Below are positions 53,278-64,000 of a stretch of DNA of 64,000 nucleotides, one piece after another. Origin of the DNA: Archangium lansingense (GTDB taxonomy: Bacteria; Myxococcota; Myxococcia; Myxococcales; Myxococcaceae); contig NZ_JAPNKA010000001.1 in the NCBI RefSeq assembly GCF_026626635.1, positions 1,984,001 through 2,048,000 on the forward strand. Direction: 5' to 3'. The position numbers were made by a program, and so were the translations under genes. Each line of letters opens with the position of its first letter. Positions within the stretch are counted from its first letter, which is position 1. The notes below the pieces were generated by a model. The model saw only the letters and a program-made list of their open reading frames with translations, was not told the DNA's origin and did not search any database.

Positions 53278-54414
53278 ATGAAGGTCCTCCAACTGGGCAA
53301 GTACTACGCTCCCTACCGGGGCGGCATGGAGACGCACCTGTCGGGGCTGTGCGAGGAGCTCAAGGGCCGCGTGGAGCTGGAGGTGCTCGTCTCCAACACG
53401 GCCCTGCGCACCGTGCGCGAGGTGGTGAACGGCGTACCCGTCACCCGCTGCGCCGAGCTGGTGAAGGTGGCCTCCACTTCGCTCAACCCCACGCTGTCGC
53501 TGGAGCTGTCGCGGCGCCGGTACGACCTGCTGCACATGCACTTCCCGCACCCCATGGCGGTGATGGCATACCTGGGGAGCGTACGGCCGCGGCGGCACGG
53601 GCTCGTCATCACCTACCACAGCGATGTGGTGCGCCAGAAACGGCTGCTGAAGGTGTATGGCCCCTTCATGCAGCGGGCATTGGCACGTGCGGACGCCATC
53701 CTGGTGGGCTCGCCCAACTATGTGGAGACGTCCGAGGCGTTGCGACCGCACCGGGACAGGTGCCACGTGGTGCCCTTCGGCATCGACGTGTCTCGCTTCG
53801 TCCGCACGCCCGCGCGCGAGGCGGCGGCCGCGGCCGTGCGGGCCCGGTATGGCGGGGCTCCGCTGCTGATGGGGGTAGGGCGGCTCGTTTATTACAAGGG
53901 CTTCGACCACGCCATCCGCGCGCTGCGCGAGGTGGAGGGTGCGCACCTGCTGCTGGTGGGTGAGGGGCCGCTGCGCGCGGAGCTGGAGGCACTGGCCCGG
54001 GCATGCGGCGTGGCCGGGCGCGTCCATTTCCTCGGGAACCTGGGAGACGAGGAGCTGCTCGCGCTCTACTTCGCGTGCGACGCCTACGTGCTGTCCTCCG
54101 TCACCCGCGCCGAGGCCTTCGCGCTGGTGCAGCTCGAGGCGCTGGCGTGCGGGCTGCCCGTCATCAATACCGCGTTGGACTCGGGAGTGCCCTTCGTCAG
54201 TCGCCACGAAGAGAGCGGTCTCACCGTGCCGCCAGGGGACGAGGCGGCGCTGGCCGCGGCCATGCGGCGAATGCTGGGGCACCCGGAGCAGCGGCGGGCC
54301 TGGGGCGAGGCGGGCCGAGCGCGCGTCTTGGCCGAGTTCACCCAGGCGCGCATGGGTGAGCGGGTGCTCGCCGTCTACCGGGAGGTCATGGACGCGAGAA
54401 GGGGGAGGGGATGA
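53278..54414 (+). CDS. GT4 family glycosyltransferase
   Basis: A 378-residue GT-B enzyme. N-lobe: MKVLQLGKYYAPYRGGMETHL with a Gly-rich donor loop, and ITYHSDVVRQK. C-lobe: MGVGRLVYYKGFDHAIRAL and the GT4 EX7E motif EAFALVQLE (about residues 281-289). It should use a nucleotide sugar to extend a lipid-linked repeat unit at the cytoplasmic face. It starts 12 bases after the Wzc-like gene and overlaps the ligase-like gene by four bases, so it is part of the exopolysaccharide operon. Sugar identity cannot be read. Confidence 0.92.
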   Translation: MKVLQLGKYYAPYRGGMETHLSGLCEELKGRVELEVLVSNTALRTVREVVNGVPVTRCAELVKVASTSLNPTLSLELSRRRYDLLHMHFPHPMAVMAYLGSVRPRRHGLVITYHSDVVRQKRLLKVYGPFMQRALARADAILVGSPNYVETSEALRPHRDRCHVVPFGIDVSRFVRTPAREAAAAAVRARYGGAPLLMGVGRLVYYKGFDHAIRALREVEGAHLLLVGEGPLRAELEALARACGVAGRVHFLGNLGDEELLALYFACDAYVLSSVTRAEAFALVQLEALACGLPVINTALDSGVPFVSRHEESGLTVPPGDEAALAAAMRRMLGHPEQRRAWGEAGRARVLAEFTQARMGERVLAVYREVMDARRGRG

Positions 54415-55799
54415 TCGGCCTCCTCCTGACGCTCTTCTCCCTCATCGGGACGCTGCTGGCCACGCGGCGCAGCCTGGGCCACGGGCTGGGCGCGCTGCTG
54501 CTGGTGGGCTACTTCTACGGCATCCTTCGGGCACGCTTCGCGGACGGCTTCTCGCACTTCATGTTCGACGCCGCCGTGGCCGGCCTCTACCTGGCTGTCC
54601 TCACCAACCGGAGGCGGAAGATGCGCTTCGGCCATGACGGCCAGGTGCTGCGGCTCTGGGTCAAGGTGCTGATGGTGTGGCCGCTGTGCACCATGCTGCT
54701 GTCGCCCTTCTTCGACTCGCAGCACTTCTTCATCCAGTTGGTGGGCCTGCGCGTGGCCATCCTGCTGCTGCCGTTGATGGCCATCGGCGCGCGGATGACC
54801 GAGGAGGAGTTGGATTCGCTGGGGACGTGGGTGCTGTGGCTCAATGCCGTGGCGTTCCTCTTCGCCGTGGCGCAGCTTGCCATTGGCGTAGAGCCCTTCT
54901 TCCCGCGCAACGCCGTCACCACCGTCCTCTACCTGTCCAACGACGTGGGCGAGGAGCGCGCCCTGCGCATCCCGGCCATCTTCAACACCTCGCACGCGTA
55001 CGGGGGCACCATGCTGCTGTCGTTGCCGCTGCTGGTGCGCCGCTGGCAGCGGTTGTCCTCGGGCCGGAGCCGGGTGTTTACCGGGATGGTGCTGGCGGCC
55101 AGCGTGCTGGGAGTCTTCATCTGTGCGGCGCGTAGCCCGGTGGCGCAGCTCGTGCTCATCCTCGGGCTGCTGCTGCTCGTCGCTGGGTTGTCGTTCAGGC
55201 TGCTGGCGGGCGTGGTGGGACTGGCGGGGGTGGTGGGGTTGATCGTTGCCGCCAACCCGCGCTTCCAGCGCTTCGCCACGTTGGAGGACACCAGCTATGT
55301 CTCGGACCGGGTGGCGTTGAGCGTGAACACCAACCTGTTCGACGTCATCTCGAATCATCCGCTGGGCAACGGGCTGGGCAGCGCCGCGGGAACGAGCATT
55401 CCCTTCTTCCTGTCTCATCTGGCCCGGCCTCAGTACGGCCTGGAGAATGAGTTCGCCCGCATCGCCATGGAGCAGGGTCTTATCGGCCTGGTGTTCTGGG
55501 TGCTCTTCCTCGGCTGGCTCTTTACCCGGTTGCCGCCGCGCCGCCGCGGTGGTTCGCTGATTGCCGAGCGGATGATGTGGGCCACCGTCCTGACGGTCTG
55601 GGCCACTGCCGTCATGGGTACGGGCACGCTCTCCTCGATTCCTGGCACCGCCTTCCTGCTGCTGTGGATGGGCATCATCGTCGGGACGCGGCGTCCCGCA
55701 CCTGTCCCGCAGCGCCGGCTGGTGGTGTCCCAAGCCCTCGTGCCTCAGGCTCCTGTCACGCCGCCGCCGCCCGTGGGGCTCTCGGAAGGGCGCGCATGA
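54411..55799 (+). CDS. O-antigen ligase/polymerase-like (Wzy/WaaL) membrane protein
   Basis: A 462-residue protein with about eleven membrane segments and one large periplasmic loop (about 290-375) including FDVISNHPLGNGLGSAAGTS and GLENEFARIAMEQGLIGLVFW. The NHPLGNGLGS and N/H-x-E-x-A-x-x-G-x-x-G pattern is characteristic of the Wzy_C family. It would polymerise repeat units of the exopolysaccharide assembled by the neighbouring GT4 enzymes, or ligate glycan to a lipid. ATGA overlaps on both sides show coupling to both GT4 genes. Confidence 0.88.
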   Translation: MIGLLLTLFSLIGTLLATRRSLGHGLGALLLVGYFYGILRARFADGFSHFMFDAAVAGLYLAVLTNRRRKMRFGHDGQVLRLWVKVLMVWPLCTMLLSPFFDSQHFFIQLVGLRVAILLLPLMAIGARMTEEELDSLGTWVLWLNAVAFLFAVAQLAIGVEPFFPRNAVTTVLYLSNDVGEERALRIPAIFNTSHAYGGTMLLSLPLLVRRWQRLSSGRSRVFTGMVLAASVLGVFICAARSPVAQLVLILGLLLLVAGLSFRLLAGVVGLAGVVGLIVAANPRFQRFATLEDTSYVSDRVALSVNTNLFDVISNHPLGNGLGSAAGTSIPFFLSHLARPQYGLENEFARIAMEQGLIGLVFWVLFLGWLFTRLPPRRRGGSLIAERMMWATVLTVWATAVMGTGTLSSIPGTAFLLLWMGIIVGTRRPAPVPQRRLVVSQALVPQAPVTPPPPVGLSEGRA

Positions 55800-56911
55800 G
55801 CCCACGCAGGAGGCGAGTGGCCTTCGTGGTGAATGGCACGCAGGGCAGCCCCATGAGCACTCGCGCCGAGTCCTTCGCGCGGGCCTTGGAAGCGGACTTC
55901 GACTGCGTGCTGCTCCACCGCCAGCCCCGAAAGCTGCGGGCCATCTCCGAGCTGGCGTCTGGGCTGAGCGCCTTGCGGCCCGACGCAGTGTACGTGCTCG
56001 ACCTGGGATATTCGGGTATCGCCGCCGCGGCTCTTTATGGAGTGCTCGGGAGGGTGCTCGGGCGCTGCCCTCGCGTCGTGGACACCGGGGATGCCATCGC
56101 GGCCCTCGCGCGCTCGGTGGGAGGCCGAGGCCGGGTGGGGGAGCTGCTCACCGAGGGCCTCGAGCAGTTCGGCTTGCGTACCGCGGATGCCATCGTGGTG
56201 CGGGGCACCTTCCACCAGCGATTGCTCTCTGAGCAGGGCCTCGCCAGCACCGTCATCCAGGATGGTGTGCACGTTGACGCATTCCTGCCCCGTCCCGCGG
56301 CGGAGCTGCGCCGGAAGCTGGGTTTGGAGGACGTGCTGACGATTGGCATTCTCGGCTCCTCCATCTGGAGTGAGCGGCTTCAGGTGGCCGTAGGCTGGGA
56401 GCTGATTGAGCTGATGCGCCTGCTGAAGGGTCGGCCCGTGAAGGGCGTGCTCATCGGTGATGGCAGTGGTGTGCCCCATCTGCGTGAGCGGTGCCGGCGT
56501 TATGGCATTGAGGAGCAGGTGCTCTTCATCGACCGCGTGCCCTACGCGTCCGTGCCTGAGTATCTCGGCGCGCTCGACGTGGTGTTGTCGACGCAGAGCA
56601 ACGACGTCGTGGGCCAGGTGCGCACCACGGGGAAGCTGCCCCTCTACATGGCCAACGGGCGCTTCATCCTCGCCACCGACGTGGGCGAGGCCTCACTGGT
56701 ACTGCCGGAGGAGATGCGCGTGCCCTATGCGGGCGTGGTGGATGCGTCCTACCCATCCCGTCTGGCCGAGCGTGTGGAGGGATTGCTCGCCAGGCCCGAG
56801 CGATTGCGCGCGGGTGAATCACTGATAAGCGTGGCACGGCAAAAGTTTGACTACACCGTGTTGGCCAGACGCGTCAGGGATGTGCTCGAGCGTGTTGTGT
56901 CATCTCGTTGA
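55796..56911 (+). CDS. GT4-like glycosyltransferase
   Basis: A 371-residue GT-B enzyme starting MSPRRRRVAFVVNGTQGSPMSTRAE; the ATG overlaps the upstream stop (ATGA). Domain features: VYVLDLGYSGIAAAALYG and VVDTGDAIAALAR in the N-lobe, VIQDGVHVDAFLP at the hinge, and TIGILGSSIWSERLQVAVGWELIELM with FIDRVPYASVPEYLGALDVVLSTQS in the C-lobe. The usual EX7E motif is not obvious, so donor binding may differ from the first GT4 enzyme. It is the last gene of the exopolysaccharide set; a TTGACA lies on its stop codon and may belong to the promoter of the next gene. Confidence 0.82.
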   Translation: MSPRRRRVAFVVNGTQGSPMSTRAESFARALEADFDCVLLHRQPRKLRAISELASGLSALRPDAVYVLDLGYSGIAAAALYGVLGRVLGRCPRVVDTGDAIAALARSVGGRGRVGELLTEGLEQFGLRTADAIVVRGTFHQRLLSEQGLASTVIQDGVHVDAFLPRPAAELRRKLGLEDVLTIGILGSSIWSERLQVAVGWELIELMRLLKGRPVKGVLIGDGSGVPHLRERCRRYGIEEQVLFIDRVPYASVPEYLGALDVVLSTQSNDVVGQVRTTGKLPLYMANGRFILATDVGEASLVLPEEMRVPYAGVVDASYPSRLAERVEGLLARPERLRAGESLISVARQKFDYTVLARRVRDVLERVVSSR

Positions 56912-57020: not shown

Positions 57021-60000
57021 ATGAGCAACCCGGTTTCCTTCTTCCTCAACGGTCAGGCCGTTACCATTGAGGACCCGTCGCCCGACCTGCTGCTGATCGA
57101 CTTTCTGCGCTCGCCCGAGGTGGGGCTCGCAGGGCCGAAGAAGCCCTGCGGACAAGGCGGATGTGGTGGCTGCACGGTCATTCTCTCTCACTGGAACGAG
57201 GACGAGGGTCAGGCCGAGCACCGCGCCATCAACTCCTGTCTGCGCCCGGTCTGCTCTTTGGGCGGGCTCGTGGTCACGACAGTCGAGGGGACGGGTGCCG
57301 CGCGGCGTCCGAACCCCGAGCACCTCACCCACTCCCTGACCTTCGGCCGCTCGGCGGCCCCACCGCAGACGCCGCCTCCCGCGGTGCTCGAGGCGCAGCA
57401 TCAGGCGGAGGCGAAGCGGATGGCGGTGCTGAAGAAGGCAGGCGCGGCGGTCGCAACTGCCGCGTCCCCTTCCGTCCGGCTCAGGGACGAGATGGCGGAC
57501 CACCCCTCTGAGCTGTCGCACGAGGGCATGAACCCGGTGGCTCACCGCCTGGCCATGAACAATGGCACCCAGTGCGGCTATTGCACCGTGGGGTTCGTGA
57601 TGAACATGTCGGAGTTCATCGCCAACAACCCGAGGGCCACCAAGCGGGAGATTGAGGATGCGCTGGATGGCAACCTCTGCCGCTGCACGGGCTATCGGTC
57701 CATCCTGACGGGCATGAAGACCTTCGCCTCCAACTGGACGGCGGAGGATGAGAAGAACCGGATGAAGTGCCTGCCGGACGACGAGGCCCTGTCCCAGAAG
57801 CCGGCAAGCTCTGTTGTCATTCCCTTCCCGCCCGAGGCCCAGACTCCGGCTCAGGGCGTTTCAGTGGATGACGGGCAGCGCATCTGGCGCACGCCGGCCA
57901 CCCTCGCCGAGCTCGCCCAGCTGATGCGCGAGCATCGTGGCTCCAGGCTGCGGCTTGTCTACGCCAACACCTCCTACGGTATCTACCCGGAGGAGTACCT
58001 CGCGGCCCAGGTGCTGCTCGACATCCGGCTCATCCCGGAGCTCAACGCGGCTCCGGTCGTGACGGAGGAGGGGCTCCGCATTGGTGCCGGCATCACCTAT
58101 TCCGAGCTGCTCACCGTCCTGGAGTCGGTGATGCGCGAGCGGGGCGAGCTCTCGGCGGGCCCCGACAACGAGCTCCAATACAAGGCGACGACCCGGCTCG
58201 GGGCCGCGCACTTCATGGCGCGGCGCACCGCCGGACGCATCGTGCGCAACGCGGCCTCGCTGGGCGGCAACTCGATGCTCGTGCTGAAGCACATCACCGG
58301 AAAGTCCGAGCCGTTCCCGTCGGACATCTTCTCGGCCCTGGCCGCCATCGAAGCGGAGGTCGAGTATCTCGACACGCGGAGCACGAAGGACTCCTCGCTC
58401 CGCCGCAGCACGGTCGAGAAGCTGGTCGCCCTCGTCCAGGAAGAGCCGGAGCTGATCGACGCCCTGGTGCTGGTTGCCTACCACCTGCCCTATGGCTCGT
58501 CTGGGGAGGTGGTGCTGCCGCAGAAGGTGGCGCTGCGCGAGGTGAATGCGCACAGCATCGTCAATGCCACCAGCCGGTTCGGGTTGTCCGATGACTTCAC
58601 CGTCGAGACGGCCGTCCTGGTGTTCGGCGGCATCGCTCCCTTCCCGTGGCGGGCTCGGCAGACGGAGGAGAAGCTGCTGGGCAAGCGGCTGGCGCTGACC
58701 GACATGCCGGAGCTCGCGAGCGTGCTGGAGAAGGAGGTTCGTGCCGAGCTCCAGCGCTGGGCCGAGCGCATGAAGGGGTTGCCGACGGAGGGCTTCACCA
58801 ACGAGTACCGGGTGCAGCTTGCAATCTCGTTCCTCTACAAGGCCGTGGTGAACGCGCTCGTCGAGCGGCACGCTCCCGTTCCGGAGCCGGTCCGCTCCAG
58901 CGGGGAGATCACCTGGGGCCGCTGGCCCGTCAGTGACGGCAAGCAGTCCTACAAGAGCCAGTCCTTCAAGAAGCCTGTCTCGCAGCCCTACATCAAGTAC
59001 ATGGCGATGGAGCAGGCCTCGGGGCAGATTCACTACGCCCACGAGCTGCCGGTGCCGCCGCTCACCGTCAATGCGGCCTTCGTGCAGAGCCGCCGTGCGC
59101 TGGCCTCCTGGAACTTCGTGATTCCTGGCCAGAATGGGGCGGTGAGTGCGGGGGCGTTGCGCGAACATCTGAGCGAATACTCCGCCTCCTTCGTCGACCT
59201 CATCACCTCCGAGAACATCAAGGACGGTGGCATCAACCTGCAGGGCATGGGGTCCGACCAGCCGCTGTTCGCGGTGAAGCAGGTGGAGTACGTCGGACAG
59301 TCGCTTGCCCTGGTGAGCGCCGACACTGAGCAGGAGGCGTTCCGGCTCGCCGACTACGTCACCAGCCAGTGCGTGGCCTACGGGCCCGTCGAGGTGTCTG
59401 AGTGCTCGCCGGCCTGGTGGAGCAAGCCCGTGCTGGGCCTGGACGAGGCCATCCGCCTCAACAGCATCTTCCCCGACTGGCCGAGCGCAGCTCCCTTCAT
59501 CTCGCACATCTGGAAGATCACTCGGCCGGGCAGCCGCTTCGACTGGGCCAACGTGGGGAAGGATCCCCTGGACAAGTCCATCGTCAACCGGAAGGCGGTG
59601 TTGGACGGAGTGCCCTGCCAGGTGGTGGAGGGCACGCAGGCCACCGGCGGTCAGGTCCACTTCTACATGGAGCCTCAGGCCGCCGTGGCCGAGCCCGCTG
59701 ACGGTCGGCGGTTGATCATGCGGCCCTCCACGCAGAGCCCGATGGAAATGCACCAGACGGTGGCCTCGGCGCTGGGCGTCCAGCACAACCGCATCGACGT
59801 GCAGGTTCCGCCCGTGGGAGGTGGCTTCGGCGGCAAGACGGAACAGGCCCGCTTCGTCGTGGGTGCCGCCGCGGTCGCCGCTCACGCGATGAAGAGGCCA
59901 GTTCGCCTGACGCTCACGCGCGAGCAGGACACGGCGATGATTGGCAAGCGCCACGCCTATTACGGTCAGTACCAGGTCGCCATCGACCGGGGTGAGTTGA

Positions 60001-61604
60001 ACCCAGCCGACCGCGGCCTCATTCGCGGCTTCCTGAACCGGATGTGGGGCGACGGCGGCGCCTTCTACGACTGCTCCTTCATCGTCTCCAACTGCATCCA
60101 GACGCGCGCGGACAACGCCTACCGCATCCCGAACTTCGAGAACCAGATCGACGTCTGCCGCACCAACACGGCTCCCAGCACCGCCTTCCGGTCCTTCGGC
60201 GATGTCCAGGCCAAGGTCATCACGGAGAGCGCGCTCGACGACGCGGCCTTCAGCGTCGGGATGACGGCCGAGGAGGTCCGCGAGAAGAACCTCTACGTGC
60301 GTGGCGACGTCACGCCGTTCGGCCAGGCTCTGTCGTACTGCTACATCCGTCAGGTCTGGGACTACCTGAAGCAGGTCTGCAAGTACGAGCAGAAGCGGCA
60401 GGAGGTCGAGGCGTTCAACGCCGCGAATCGCTGGCGCAAGCGCGGGCTGGCCATGCTGCCCGTCAAGTACGGCTCGGGCTACAACCTGGCGCAGCTGGAG
60501 CAGGCGACGGCCGTGGTCTCCATCTTCCAGGCCGATGGCTCCATCGTCATCCACCAGGGCGGCGTGGAGATGGGGCAGGGCCTGCTGACCCTGGTGCGGC
60601 AGATTGCCGCCTACATCCTGAACGTGCCCATGGAGATGATCCATGTGGAGGGGCCGAGGACCAGCGTCACCCCCAACCCGTCCAGCACCGGCGGCTCGAC
60701 CGGAACGGCCTACAACGGCGAGGCGGTCAAGCGCGTCTGCGAACAGCTCCGCGGCCGCCTGGCGGAGTTCGCCTACAGCATGCGGGACGAGAACGGCGGC
60801 GACTGGTGCACCGCCAACGGCATCGACTTCTGGAACTTCAGTGAGACGGGCTGGAACACCGAGGTGACTATCAATGGGCAGAAGTCGTTGATCTGGCAGA
60901 AGCTGGTGCAGCTGGCCTACTCGAAGCGGATCGGCCTGGTGGCGAGCTTCACCGCGCCCATCCCGGGTGGCACCACGCCCATGCCAGCGCTGACCTTCAA
61001 GACGCATGAGCAGCAGCCCGTCATTCCGGGCTACACGAGCGACCCGAACTTCAGCGGAGGGGGCTTCGACAGCTTCGTTGGCTTCACCTACTCCGCCGCC
61101 TGCTCGGTGACGGAGGTGGATGTGCTCACCGGCGAGGTGAAGGTCATCAGCTCCGACATCGTCTACGACATGGGGTGGAGCCTCAACCCAGCCATCGACA
61201 TCGGCCAGGTGGAGGGCGCCTTCGTTCAGGGGCTCGGCTACGTGCTGTCGGAGAAGCTGGAGTTCGAGCAGGACGGCGAGGATGTTGGTCGCCTCAACAC
61301 CCTGAACACCTGGCGCTACAAGCCGCCCGCCGTCACCAGCATCCCGCTGGAGATGAACGTGCACCTGTTCCCGCGCGACCTCGCCGGTGTTCCCATCAGC
61401 CCGACCGACGGCGTGCTCTCCTCCAAGGAGGTGGGTGAGCCGCCGCTGGTGCTGGCCACCAGTGCGTTCCTGGCGACGAAGGCGGCCATCCGCGCCTCGC
61501 GCCTCGAGCGTGGCCTCGCGGGGCTGTTCCGGTTCGACGCTCCCGCCACCGTGCAGCAGGTGCGGACTGCCTGCGAAGTCAGTGCAAAGGATCTTGCCCT
61601 GTAA
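57021..61604 (+). CDS. single-chain xanthine dehydrogenase-family molybdenum hydroxylase
   Basis: A 1527-residue enzyme with all three parts in one chain, as in animal XDH (~1330 aa). Plant-type 2Fe-2S cluster: Cys43, 48, 51 and 73; second cluster: Cys185, 188, 220 and 222. About 72 extra residues, Ala/Pro/Gln-rich, separate the two. The FAD domain is about 280-600 (NAASLGGNSML). The molybdenum part is about 660-1510, with GGQVHFYMEPQ, GGGFGGK (Phe936), AFRSFGDVQ (Arg1057) and the catalytic Glu1473 in VGEPPLVLA. It should hydroxylate a purine, N-heterocycle or aldehyde; the substrate is unknown. No Tat signal is present, so it looks cytoplasmic. It is preceded by an operator-like palindrome and followed by an exported heme protein. 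Confidence 0.88.
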   Translation: MSNPVSFFLNGQAVTIEDPSPDLLLIDFLRSPEVGLAGPKKPCGQGGCGGCTVILSHWNEDEGQAEHRAINSCLRPVCSLGGLVVTTVEGTGAARRPNPEHLTHSLTFGRSAAPPQTPPPAVLEAQHQAEAKRMAVLKKAGAAVATAASPSVRLRDEMADHPSELSHEGMNPVAHRLAMNNGTQCGYCTVGFVMNMSEFIANNPRATKREIEDALDGNLCRCTGYRSILTGMKTFASNWTAEDEKNRMKCLPDDEALSQKPASSVVIPFPPEAQTPAQGVSVDDGQRIWRTPATLAELAQLMREHRGSRLRLVYANTSYGIYPEEYLAAQVLLDIRLIPELNAAPVVTEEGLRIGAGITYSELLTVLESVMRERGELSAGPDNELQYKATTRLGAAHFMARRTAGRIVRNAASLGGNSMLVLKHITGKSEPFPSDIFSALAAIEAEVEYLDTRSTKDSSLRRSTVEKLVALVQEEPELIDALVLVAYHLPYGSSGEVVLPQKVALREVNAHSIVNATSRFGLSDDFTVETAVLVFGGIAPFPWRARQTEEKLLGKRLALTDMPELASVLEKEVRAELQRWAERMKGLPTEGFTNEYRVQLAISFLYKAVVNALVERHAPVPEPVRSSGEITWGRWPVSDGKQSYKSQSFKKPVSQPYIKYMAMEQASGQIHYAHELPVPPLTVNAAFVQSRRALASWNFVIPGQNGAVSAGALREHLSEYSASFVDLITSENIKDGGINLQGMGSDQPLFAVKQVEYVGQSLALVSADTEQEAFRLADYVTSQCVAYGPVEVSECSPAWWSKPVLGLDEAIRLNSIFPDWPSAAPFISHIWKITRPGSRFDWANVGKDPLDKSIVNRKAVLDGVPCQVVEGTQATGGQVHFYMEPQAAVAEPADGRRLIMRPSTQSPMEMHQTVASALGVQHNRIDVQVPPVGGGFGGKTEQARFVVGAAAVAAHAMKRPVRLTLTREQDTAMIGKRHAYYGQYQVAIDRGELNPADRGLIRGFLNRMWGDGGAFYDCSFIVSNCIQTRADNAYRIPNFENQIDVCRTNTAPSTAFRSFGDVQAKVITESALDDAAFSVGMTAEEVREKNLYVRGDVTPFGQALSYCYIRQVWDYLKQVCKYEQKRQEVEAFNAANRWRKRGLAMLPVKYGSGYNLAQLEQATAVVSIFQADGSIVIHQGGVEMGQGLLTLVRQIAAYILNVPMEMIHVEGPRTSVTPNPSSTGGSTGTAYNGEAVKRVCEQLRGRLAEFAYSMRDENGGDWCTANGIDFWNFSETGWNTEVTINGQKSLIWQKLVQLAYSKRIGLVASFTAPIPGGTTPMPALTFKTHEQQPVIPGYTSDPNFSGGGFDSFVGFTYSAACSVTEVDVLTGEVKVISSDIVYDMGWSLNPAIDIGQVEGAFVQGLGYVLSEKLEFEQDGEDVGRLNTLNTWRYKPPAVTSIPLEMNVHLFPRDLAGVPISPTDGVLSSKEVGEPPLVLATSAFLATKAAIRASRLERGLAGLFRFDAPATVQQVRTACEVSAKDLAL

Positions 61605-61643
61605 GTGGTTGCATCCCCCGTAATGGAAGGAAAGACATCAGGC

Positions 61644-63092
61644 ATGACACAAAAATGGAATGCAGCGGCGGCGCTGGCCGCCATGGGTCTCTCGCTGACG
61701 GGTGGTGTGGCGTCCGCTCAGCAGAAGCTGGCTCCGAAGAAGCAGCTGACGGCCCAGGCGCCGGCCGCCGCCGAGGCCCTGCTGCGTACTCCGGAAGGAT
61801 ACAAGCTGAAGGAGACCCCGTTCCCCGACTTCGGCTACATGGTCTCCACTCAGGATTATCTGAATAAGTATTCCGACCAGCCGATCTTCCGCCTGAAGAC
61901 GGACTTCCCCACCGTCAAGCCGAAGAAGCAGCCGGACTTCGTTCAGAAGATCGACTTCCGGAAGAACCCGAAGGAATACCTGCTGGCCGTTCGCGACTAC
62001 TCCTTCGACGGCAACCTGCCGGATTGGGATCCCTTCAAGAACACCAAGCGCGGCTGGTATCACATTCCCTGGCTGCATCCGTCGACGGAGGGTCCGAATG
62101 CCTATCCGCCCAACGGAGGGACGGAGGGGTTCCATGGTCTCATCAAGGAGGCCCCTCTCAGCCCTCTGCAGCTCGGGCCTGGGCAGAAGGGCAAGGATGG
62201 CGGCTACTCGGTCTATGCCATCACGCTCGTCAATGACATGGCTGGCTACACGCTGGGCCGGATGTGGGCCGATCCCAACAATCCGGATCCGCGGGCGACG
62301 GATCGACGCTACGGCGGCGGCTTCCCGCCCGGCACGGTGTTCGCCAAGCTGTTGTTCACCGATGCGCCCCAGGGGGATGACCAGCTCCCCTTCATGCAGA
62401 ACCCGCTGCAGTGGACGGCCTACATCACCGAGAACTTCTGGAAGTCCTCCAAGCGCATCGTCACCAAGGTGAACCTGCTGCAGATGGACATCGCCGTGCG
62501 CGATACCCGCGCCGATGGGCCCGGCGGCACTGGCTGGGTTTTTGGGACGTTTGCCTACAACGGCCAGGTGAACAACCCCAACAAGTTCCTGAACCTGGTG
62601 CCGGTGGGCATGATGTGGGGCAATGATCCCGACAACAAGGTGAATACCACCAACCCGTTCCCGCCGACCGAGACCAAGGTCAATCCCGACCTGAAGGAGA
62701 CGGTCATCTTCCCGTCGAAGGAGCTGCCGCCGCAGCACCTGGGCTGGAACGGGCGGCTGAACGGGCCCGCCGACCTCAACACCACCTCGTGCCTGAGCTG
62801 CCACAACGCGGCCCAGTACCCGGCGGTGTCGAGCCTGGTTCCCGACGGGGCGGTTCCCGACGGCGGTCCGAAGCCGCCCCCGCAGGGTGGCACCGCGGAG
62901 TGGATGAAGTGGTTCCAGAACGTGCCGGCCGGCACTTCCATGGACCAGCGCGTCTACTCCACCGACTTCTCGTTCCAGGTGGCCATCGCCCTGACCAATT
63001 TCTTCACGGTGAAGGGCAAGGAATTGCAGGGCAACTGGGCCAGTGACTACCAGCTGGCCCCCGTTCCCATTACACGCGGCTTCCCGGATTGA
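61644..63092 (+). CDS. exported mono-heme-motif protein paired with the molybdenum hydroxylase
   Basis: A 482-residue protein with a signal peptide (AAALAAMGLSLTGGVASAQQ). The ATG at 61644 is chosen for the GGAAGGAAAG site before it; an ATG at 61623 is possible. A large N-terminal domain without known family (about 30-360; GGYSVYAITLVNDMAGYTLGRMW, AFVQ-free) is followed by CLSCHNAAQYPA (Cys383, Cys386, His387), a single c-type heme site, and a C-terminal helical part. It begins 39 bases after the hydroxylase stop with no terminator between, so co-transcription is likely. It could accept electrons in the periplasm, but how electrons would reach it from a cytoplasmic enzyme is unclear. Confidence 0.75.
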   Translation: MTQKWNAAAALAAMGLSLTGGVASAQQKLAPKKQLTAQAPAAAEALLRTPEGYKLKETPFPDFGYMVSTQDYLNKYSDQPIFRLKTDFPTVKPKKQPDFVQKIDFRKNPKEYLLAVRDYSFDGNLPDWDPFKNTKRGWYHIPWLHPSTEGPNAYPPNGGTEGFHGLIKEAPLSPLQLGPGQKGKDGGYSVYAITLVNDMAGYTLGRMWADPNNPDPRATDRRYGGGFPPGTVFAKLLFTDAPQGDDQLPFMQNPLQWTAYITENFWKSSKRIVTKVNLLQMDIAVRDTRADGPGGTGWVFGTFAYNGQVNNPNKFLNLVPVGMMWGNDPDNKVNTTNPFPPTETKVNPDLKETVIFPSKELPPQHLGWNGRLNGPADLNTTSCLSCHNAAQYPAVSSLVPDGAVPDGGPKPPPQGGTAEWMKWFQNVPAGTSMDQRVYSTDFSFQVAIALTNFFTVKGKELQGNWASDYQLAPVPITRGFPD

Positions 63093-63241: not shown

Positions 63242-64000
63242 TCAACGAATGGAGGAGTCCGCGAGCCGCTCGTAGAGACGGAAGTAGGCCTCGGCCATCT
63301 GCGCCCAGCCGTGCTCCCGGGCCACCTCGCGAGCCCGGAGCCCCATGCGCTCGCGCAGCGGAGCATCCTCCACCAGGGAGCGCATGGCCCGGCTGAGCGC
63401 GGCGGCATCCTCCGGATTCGGCAGGACGACACCGCACTCGGGTGTCACGAGGCTCGCGGCCCCCACCGAGCGGGCCGTCACCACCGGGACACCCGAGGCC
63501 AGCGCCTCGAGCACCACCAGCGCGAACGTCTCGTAGCGCGAGGGGAACACGAAGAGGTCGCTCGCGCGCAGCAGCCGGGCCACGTCGTCGCGGAAGCCGA
63601 GGAAGCTCACCCGGTCCGCTACCCCCAGCCGATCGGCCAGGGCGGGGAAGGGCGAGCCTCGCACGTCTCCCACGACGGCCAGGTGCAGCCCCGGTACCTC
63701 GCGCAGCGCGGCCAGCACCGTGTCCAGGTTCTTGCGCCCCGTGCGAATACCTCCCACGAAGAGGGCCAGCGGCCGGTCCTCCGGCAGTCCCCACGTTGCG
63801 CGCGGCTCCCTCCCCGGGCGGAACTCCTCCAGGTCGACGCCGTTGGGCACCGTCACCACGTGCTCGGGCGGGAGGCCTGTTGCAAGCAGATCCGCGCGCA
63901 CTGGCTCCGACACCGCGGCGACGAGCCGAGCCTGACGGTAGGCCCTCTGCTCCCAGCGCGCATTGGCCGCCGTGTAGAGCCACTGGTAGGTGGACTGCAG
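63242..64000 (-). CDS. GT4 family glycosyltransferase, 5' end outside window
   Basis: The frame is open to the right edge; 252 residues are visible. The last part of the N-lobe (WLYTAANARWEQRAYRQARLVAAVSEPVR) precedes VVTVPNGVDLEEFRP at the lobe boundary. The C-lobe has ALFVGGIRTGRKNLDTVLAAL and the EX7E motif ETFALVVLE, diagnostic of GT4. It would transfer a sugar from a nucleotide donor; its place in the exopolysaccharide pathway of this region is likely but unproven, since it is on the opposite strand and separated by the hydroxylase operon. The true start lies beyond 64000. Confidence 0.92.
   Translation of the reverse strand: MQSTYQWLYTAANARWEQRAYRQARLVAAVSEPVRADLLATGLPPEHVVTVPNGVDLEEFRPGREPRATWGLPEDRPLALFVGGIRTGRKNLDTVLAALREVPGLHLAVVGDVRGSPFPALADRLGVADRVSFLGFRDDVARLLRASDLFVFPSRYETFALVVLEALASGVPVVTARSVGAASLVTPECGVVLPNPEDAAALSRAMRSLVEDAPLRERMGLRAREVAREHGWAQMAEAYFRLYERLADSSIR

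Follow-up and report, generated by a model that had tools for sequence, protein, structure and literature searches.

The locus and the molybdenum hydroxylase gene

The window analysed here is a 64,000-nucleotide stretch of Archangium lansingense DNA, positions 1984001-2048000 of a 13.8 Mb genome, and all features given below by coordinates with two dots lie on its plus strand. It carries an intact, ATG-initiated open reading frame (57021..61604) for a single-chain xanthine dehydrogenase (XDH)-like molybdenum hydroxylase of 1527 aa, followed by a gene for a predicted exported CxxCH protein (61605..63092; 495 aa from the called GTG). The pair is flanked by glycosyltransferase and O-antigen-ligase-type genes (53278-56911 and 63242-64000), with Wzy_C at 54411-55799 and a glycosyltransferase at 55790-56911 upstream of the enzyme gene; it looks as if enzyme and heme protein had been dropped into a polysaccharide cluster. 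A promoter and terminator scan at the locus gave no signal exceeding shuffles.

Along the enzyme follow a Fer2 domain holding the first [2Fe-2S] cluster at Cys43/48/51/73 (57042..57248, residues 8-76, Pfam PF00111), a Fer2_2 domain holding the second at Cys185/188/220/222 (57522..57716, residues 168-232, Pfam PF01799), the FAD-binding domain with its C-terminal part (57885..58847, residues 289-609) and the molybdopterin-binding domains MoCoBD_1 and MoCoBD_2 (59619..61346, residues 867-1442). Fer2, Fer2_2, FAD_binding_5, CO_deh_flav_C, MoCoBD_1 and MoCoBD_2 all exceed their Pfam cut-offs, and Ald_Xan_dh_C remains below its own (27.1 vs 31.3 bits). This order of Fer2, Fer2_2, FAD and MoCoBD domains within one chain is that of a molybdenum hydroxylase, and a preliminary description of this DNA had rightly recognised a single-chain XDH-type enzyme, all XDH domains lying in the one ORF. 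Its remark that a single chain is unusual for bacteria carries less weight here: all three myxobacterial insert-less XDHs that we opened (L045-L047) are single-chain as well, and L046, the only one of them scanned, exceeds both the XdhA and the XdhB cut-offs.

Glu1473 (61437..61439), the counterpart of the catalytic bovine Glu1261, and all eight cluster cysteines are invariant in 78/78 aligned homologues. The first-cluster cysteines align one to one with residues 43/48/51/73 of rat XDH (PDB 1wyg), in agreement with the XDH numbering given earlier. The second four lie 73 residues later than their counterparts in the rat enzyme, close to the shift of about 72 that had been proposed. In bovine numbering the offset is 72. 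No signal peptide is seen at the N-terminus of the window protein. An AlphaFold model of residues 1-1190, built on a 54-row alignment, has a mean pLDDT of 84.8 and matches bovine XOR (3amz) with an E value of 1.7e-65 and a TMq of 0.75. The FAD loop (LGGN...PFPSD) is longer than that of XDH, and Ser318 occupies the position of Glu263, where the 70 insert-bearing rows all have S, A or G. In XDH, Glu263 lies near the flavin. Given that this residue is replaced and the loop is longer, the use of NAD by the enzyme is doubtful.

The insert and the substrate pocket

Between the two [2Fe-2S] domains lie about 72 additional residues (57297..57530, residues about 93-170), so that the T91-N171 linker of the window enzyme measures 81 residues, compared with 8-10 in eight insert-less homologues. 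The insert is carried by 70 of the 78 aligned single-chain homologues, from seven phyla, with a T91-N171 segment of 52-95 residues. These 78 chains are the contig-scan loci, the window's enzyme, three copies from the same order and, in addition, L044, L046 and L047, minus three loci (L099, L112 and L113) whose frames are broken or short; the 70 insert rows include near-copies, with L040 and L098 apparently one contig, and the insert-less L140 was added later, outside the 78 rows. Translation in three frames shows the insert in L099 and L113 and its absence from L112. L099 and L113, broken near the N-terminus, are otherwise intact homologues, either pseudogenes or assembly errors. Two contigs of one Nocardiopsis quinghaiensis assembly (L078 and L092) bear identical inserts, through either recent duplication or a doublet in the assembly.

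Both ends of the insert are conserved (TG..R.P.P..L.H....SR and HPSE..H.GMN) and its middle is variable. An insert that is Ala/Pro/Gln-rich and then helical had been expected, and the AlphaFold model agrees: the chain is poorly ordered to residue 119 (pLDDT 59-77 in the ten-residue blocks of 91-120), forms a confident helix at 120-145 (blocks of 83-84, the last part 67) and ends in a weak tail (52-60 over 151-170). The helix has a conserved face made of A125, A129, K132, R133, V136, V140 and A143. The best conserved residues of the insert are Arg110 (93%) and Ala125 (84%), and among the insert-bearing alignment rows it holds no conserved Cys. An extra metal site within the insert was considered and is ruled out on this ground.

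The purine-binding residues of the XDH pocket are replaced. By alignment, Thr940 (59838..59840) stands at the position of bovine Glu802, Cys1025 (60093..60095) at that of Arg880, and Tyr1154-Asn1155 (60480..60485) at those of Phe1009-Thr1010. Across the insert rows these positions are T in 70/70, C in 69/70 (with one gap), Y in 69/70 and N in 69/70; by comparison, L046 and L047, which are single-chain XDHs with no insert, retain E, R, F and T. The insert-less L112 and L140 also have T, C, Y and N, and the pocket change therefore probably predates the insert. Glu941 adjoins Thr940 in 70/78 rows and, judging from the alignment, might stand in partly for Glu802. PMC4334109 and PMC3624778 treat the roles of Glu802, Arg880 and Glu1261 in XDH, and PMC3624778 reports that mutating Glu803 or Arg881 lowers the activity of human XOR.

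Besides lacking the purine-binding pair Glu802 and Arg880 of XDH, replaced here by Thr940 and Cys1025, the window enzyme fails the XDH equivalogs TIGR02963 (xdhA, 228.6 vs 467 bits) and TIGR02965 (xdhB, 462.8 vs 849.5 bits), both of which are exceeded by the positive controls L001 and L046. Its top NCBIfam match by E-value is TIGR02969 (mammalian aldehyde oxidase), and this cut-off is failed as well (574.7 vs 1912.3 bits). As judged from sequence, the enzyme is different from an ordinary XDH.

The host genomes point in the same direction. The window's genome encodes a separate canonical XdhB (1033.3 bits), and among 12 further hosts chosen from the loci, 6 have an XdhB above the cut-off. 5-hydroxyisourate hydrolase is above cut-off in 8/13 hosts and Pfam uricase is found in 2/13, neither being present in 5/13, where some hosts are incomplete MAGs and the uricase scan covers the Pfam uricase as distinct from FAD-type urate oxidases. 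All seven genomes with canonical XdhB, the window's included, have the hydrolase, and it is absent from 5 of the 6 others. Given the absence of the hydrolase, a xanthine-to-urate role is disfavoured in these five hosts, and a reading of the enzyme as a housekeeping XDH appears weakened.

Distribution, heme-protein partner and other neighbours

The nearest named homologues of the window enzyme belong to Archangium and Hyalangium, and homologues with 49-71% identity occur in seven phyla; the insert-bearing rows represent Myxococcota, Pseudomonadota, Bacteroidota, Acidobacteriota, Verrucomicrobiota, Actinomycetota and Chloroflexota. Among 145 searched genomes of its order, five full-length copies besides the window's turned up, 69-72% identical and all insert-bearing. 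Scanning genome contigs for the enzyme family gave 74 loci, a sample biased to members carrying the two exact peptide patterns that were used; genes in these loci are ORF picks rather than annotation, and clusters of shadow ORFs were disregarded. In the tree, a branch supported by an SH-aLRT of 100 sets the insert rows apart (45 vs 8 rows), whether the insert columns are kept or removed. Taxa follow a patchy order, the window gene, for example, being placed among alphaproteobacterial rows and away from the two further Myxococcota, and this suggests horizontal transfer within the insert-enzyme family. An insert-less relative of 44.8% identity, labelled 'molybdopterin cofactor-binding domain-containing protein', is located on a conjugative Methylobacterium plasmid. 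There, on Methylobacterium indicum plasmid pVL1_1 (L140, 8413-20925), the insert-less sister is accompanied by two CxxCH proteins; the region also holds a calcineurin-like phosphoesterase and a PLD-domain protein, with an integrase and an IS5 transposase nearby. A literature search, with subscription journals largely outside its coverage, found no description of the insert-bearing family and no paper containing both 'cytochrome P460' and 'xanthine dehydrogenase'; neither 'xanthine' nor 'molybd' occurs in PMC11928373.

The likely start of the partner gene is the ATG at 61644, after which a plausible Sec signal peptide can be seen by eye. Its heme-c motif, CLSCH (62790..62804), comprises C396, C399 and H400, all three unchanged across 33 rows. 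A CxxCH heme motif in a predicted exported protein, the signal peptide again being assigned by eye, is as in cytochromes P460 and c'-beta. Pfam PF16694 (P460) scores 20.2 bits against a gathering threshold of 27, and is sub-threshold in four close members of the partner family that were scanned. With the predicted model (pLDDT 71.9), the 14 best Foldseek rows are P460, at E values of only about 0.1 and none below 0.001. With VIA-align, P460 and c'-beta cytochromes fill the 17 best rows (Z 4.8-5.9, the highest over 132 residues), below which stand only unrelated folds with Z of 3.4 or less. The partner is thus likely to have an enlarged P460/c'-beta fold, as far as the model tells.

A CxxCH gene lies within 5 kb of the enzyme gene in 40/67 insert loci by ORF, or 41/67 when L058, found by tblastn, is added, and these represent six phyla. 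In 33/67 the distance is 300 bp or less, and 34 of the 35 such ORFs are on the same strand. No gene of the window's type is found nearby at 26/67 insert loci, among them all actinobacterial ones; the partner is absent from the rhizobial insert-bearing loci too. The insert-less sisters L111, L112 and L140 adjoin the same kind of partner. Within the order, partner orthologues of 78-81% identity, in three genomes besides the window's, are all beside the insert enzyme, and paralogues of 33-41% occur in other genomes. Archangium violaceum has the enzyme with no partner nearby, and its counterpart in the order search, G045, has no partner match at all. At four loci (L116 12693-18387, L109 6539-14014, L050 12704-16197 and L051) two different CxxCH paralogues flank the enzyme, which suggests a pair of heme proteins. 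In Caballeronia L077 (6215-11838) and L110 the insert enzyme has beside it a different CxxCH protein (561 aa), together with a Tat protein, a PF00383 deaminase and an oxidoreductase of the GMC type.

Neighbours other than the CxxCH gene are bound to particular lineages and are not common across them. A guanine deaminase is located directly upstream, at 60-262 bp, in 6/7 Nocardiopsis loci (six proteins alike by similarity, of which two were scanned); a nucleoside hydrolase, a nucleoside phosphorylase and an NMT1-type transporter lie near the enzyme gene in 5 rhizobial loci; and the PF00383 deaminase of Caballeronia L077 is convergent to it. These nucleobase-related neighbours in three lineages hint at a base or a related heterocycle as substrate. 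A PF04185 phosphoesterase is present in 17 loci, with another form in 3 roseobacterial loci (two scanned), DNase II in 8, a multicopper oxidase in 6, and an XdhC-like gene, named by the look of its sequence, within 5 kb in 12/67 insert loci. At L062 (14340-16958), and likewise at L059, L063-L065, L073 and L116, homologues of DNase II and the phosphoesterase share one gene run. Both are usually secreted enzymes. By eye, no signal peptide is visible on the phosphoesterases and DNase II proteins found here.

Proposed function, rival readings and comparison with known systems

Beyond the preliminary description, the analysis brought out the altered pocket, the adjacent CxxCH gene and the spread over many phyla. 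We regard it as probable that the window gene encodes a molybdenum hydroxylase of an undescribed clade, set apart by its insert and recoded pocket, which acts on a substrate other than xanthine, has a structural insert and shares a pathway with a P460-like protein. The enzyme is a catalytically competent-looking single-chain member of the XDH/aldehyde oxidase superfamily, and the 52-95-residue linker insert together with the Thr/Cys/Tyr/Asn pocket are the marks of its clade. Its substrate would be hydroxylated in the manner of XDH and would most likely be a nitrogen heterocycle, for example a modified nucleobase. Electrons would pass from Mo through FeS I and FeS II to FAD and on to an acceptor, with NAD not required. 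The insert looks like a structural linker, whose helix would pack against the surface of the protein, and would have no redox role. The partner may be an electron sink reached through some carrier or may catalyse a separate periplasmic step; given that its export is predicted and that no signal peptide can be seen on the enzyme, a direct transfer of electrons between the two would be left unexplained.

A wider view, which we put forward tentatively and hold to be rather unlikely, is that of an undescribed, partly mobile redox module with a new specificity, found in many phyla and composed of the insert enzyme, the P460-like protein and, depending on the lineage, a Tat multicopper oxidase, the PF04185 phosphoesterase and DNase II. 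If so, a nucleic-acid-derived or related heterocycle would be processed across the cell envelope, with heme protein and copper oxidase as the oxidising end.

Could the enzyme nevertheless be an isoform of xanthine or other purine dehydrogenase, which binds purines in another way and belongs to a family serving nucleobase catabolism? The guanine deaminase of Nocardiopsis fits plain xanthine oxidation, and the rhizobial nucleoside hydrolase, phosphorylase and NMT1-type genes, the Caballeronia deaminase, the DNase II loci and the XdhC-like genes are all in keeping with such a role. Yet Glu802 and Arg880 are replaced, the XDH equivalog cut-offs are missed, the window's genome and half of the other hosts possess a canonical XdhB besides, and five of the thirteen hosts show neither 5-hydroxyisourate hydrolase nor Pfam uricase. 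We consider this isoform unlikely. Electron transfer or docking through the insert, as the preliminary description proposed, would make it a module through which a redox partner is reached, for instance the CxxCH protein encoded alongside, and the joint occurrence of insert and CxxCH gene in 41/67 loci, as well as the confident helix with its conserved face, speak for it. However, the insert is without a conserved Cys, its best conserved residues being Arg and Ala, and a role for it in electron transfer is not supported. A partner of this kind also accompanies the insert-less L111, L112 and L140, so that the insert is probably not a docking device for the CxxCH protein and is hardly needed as one; actinobacterial and rhizobial loci, conversely, have the insert and no partner, and the two proteins are predicted in different compartments. 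We therefore judge a docking or electron-transfer module improbable. Finally, the low-complexity look of the middle part of the insert speaks for an artefact of sequencing or assembly, or for an extension that arose by chance and is private to the window's genome. Absence from orthologs, named beforehand as the observation that would dismiss the insert, is not what we find: it recurs at the same site, with similar length and conserved ends, in those 70 rows and seven phyla, and is neither chance nor artefact, an explanation to which we assign practically no weight.

Members of the family are likely to bear no more specific name than 'xanthine dehydrogenase family' or that of a 'molybdopterin cofactor-binding domain-containing protein'. 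Judging from their pocket residues, enzymes of the insert clade should not be counted as xanthine dehydrogenases, and the near-invariant Thr/Cys/Tyr/Asn signature offers a simple way to separate them. The partner gene raises a concrete question, which substrate is oxidised, and are its electrons finally received by an exported heme of the P460 type?

Compared with known systems, the window enzyme resembles vertebrate XDH/XOR (1fo4, 3amz, 1wyg) in its single chain, the order FeS I-FeS II-FAD-Mo, the fold, the cluster cysteines and the catalytic Glu1261, and departs from it in the FeS I/II linker insert, the longer FAD loop, the change of Glu263 to Ser and the replacement of Glu802, Arg880, Phe1009 and Thr1010. 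It shares its domains with bacterial XdhA/XdhB and with the single-chain myxobacterial XDHs (L045-L047), some of these being also fused in one chain, whereas it scores only about half of either cut-off, is without the purine-binding residues and carries the insert. Aldehyde oxidases are not known to have the XDH pocket residues. Mammalian aldehyde oxidase and the window enzyme are alike in this absence, but differ in the insert, in the pocket replacements themselves and in a score far under the cut-off. The partner, for its part, shares with cytochromes P460 and c'-beta one CxxCH and a predicted beta-rich fold, yet at about 480 aa, compared with about 150 aa, and with sub-threshold matches, it stands apart from them.
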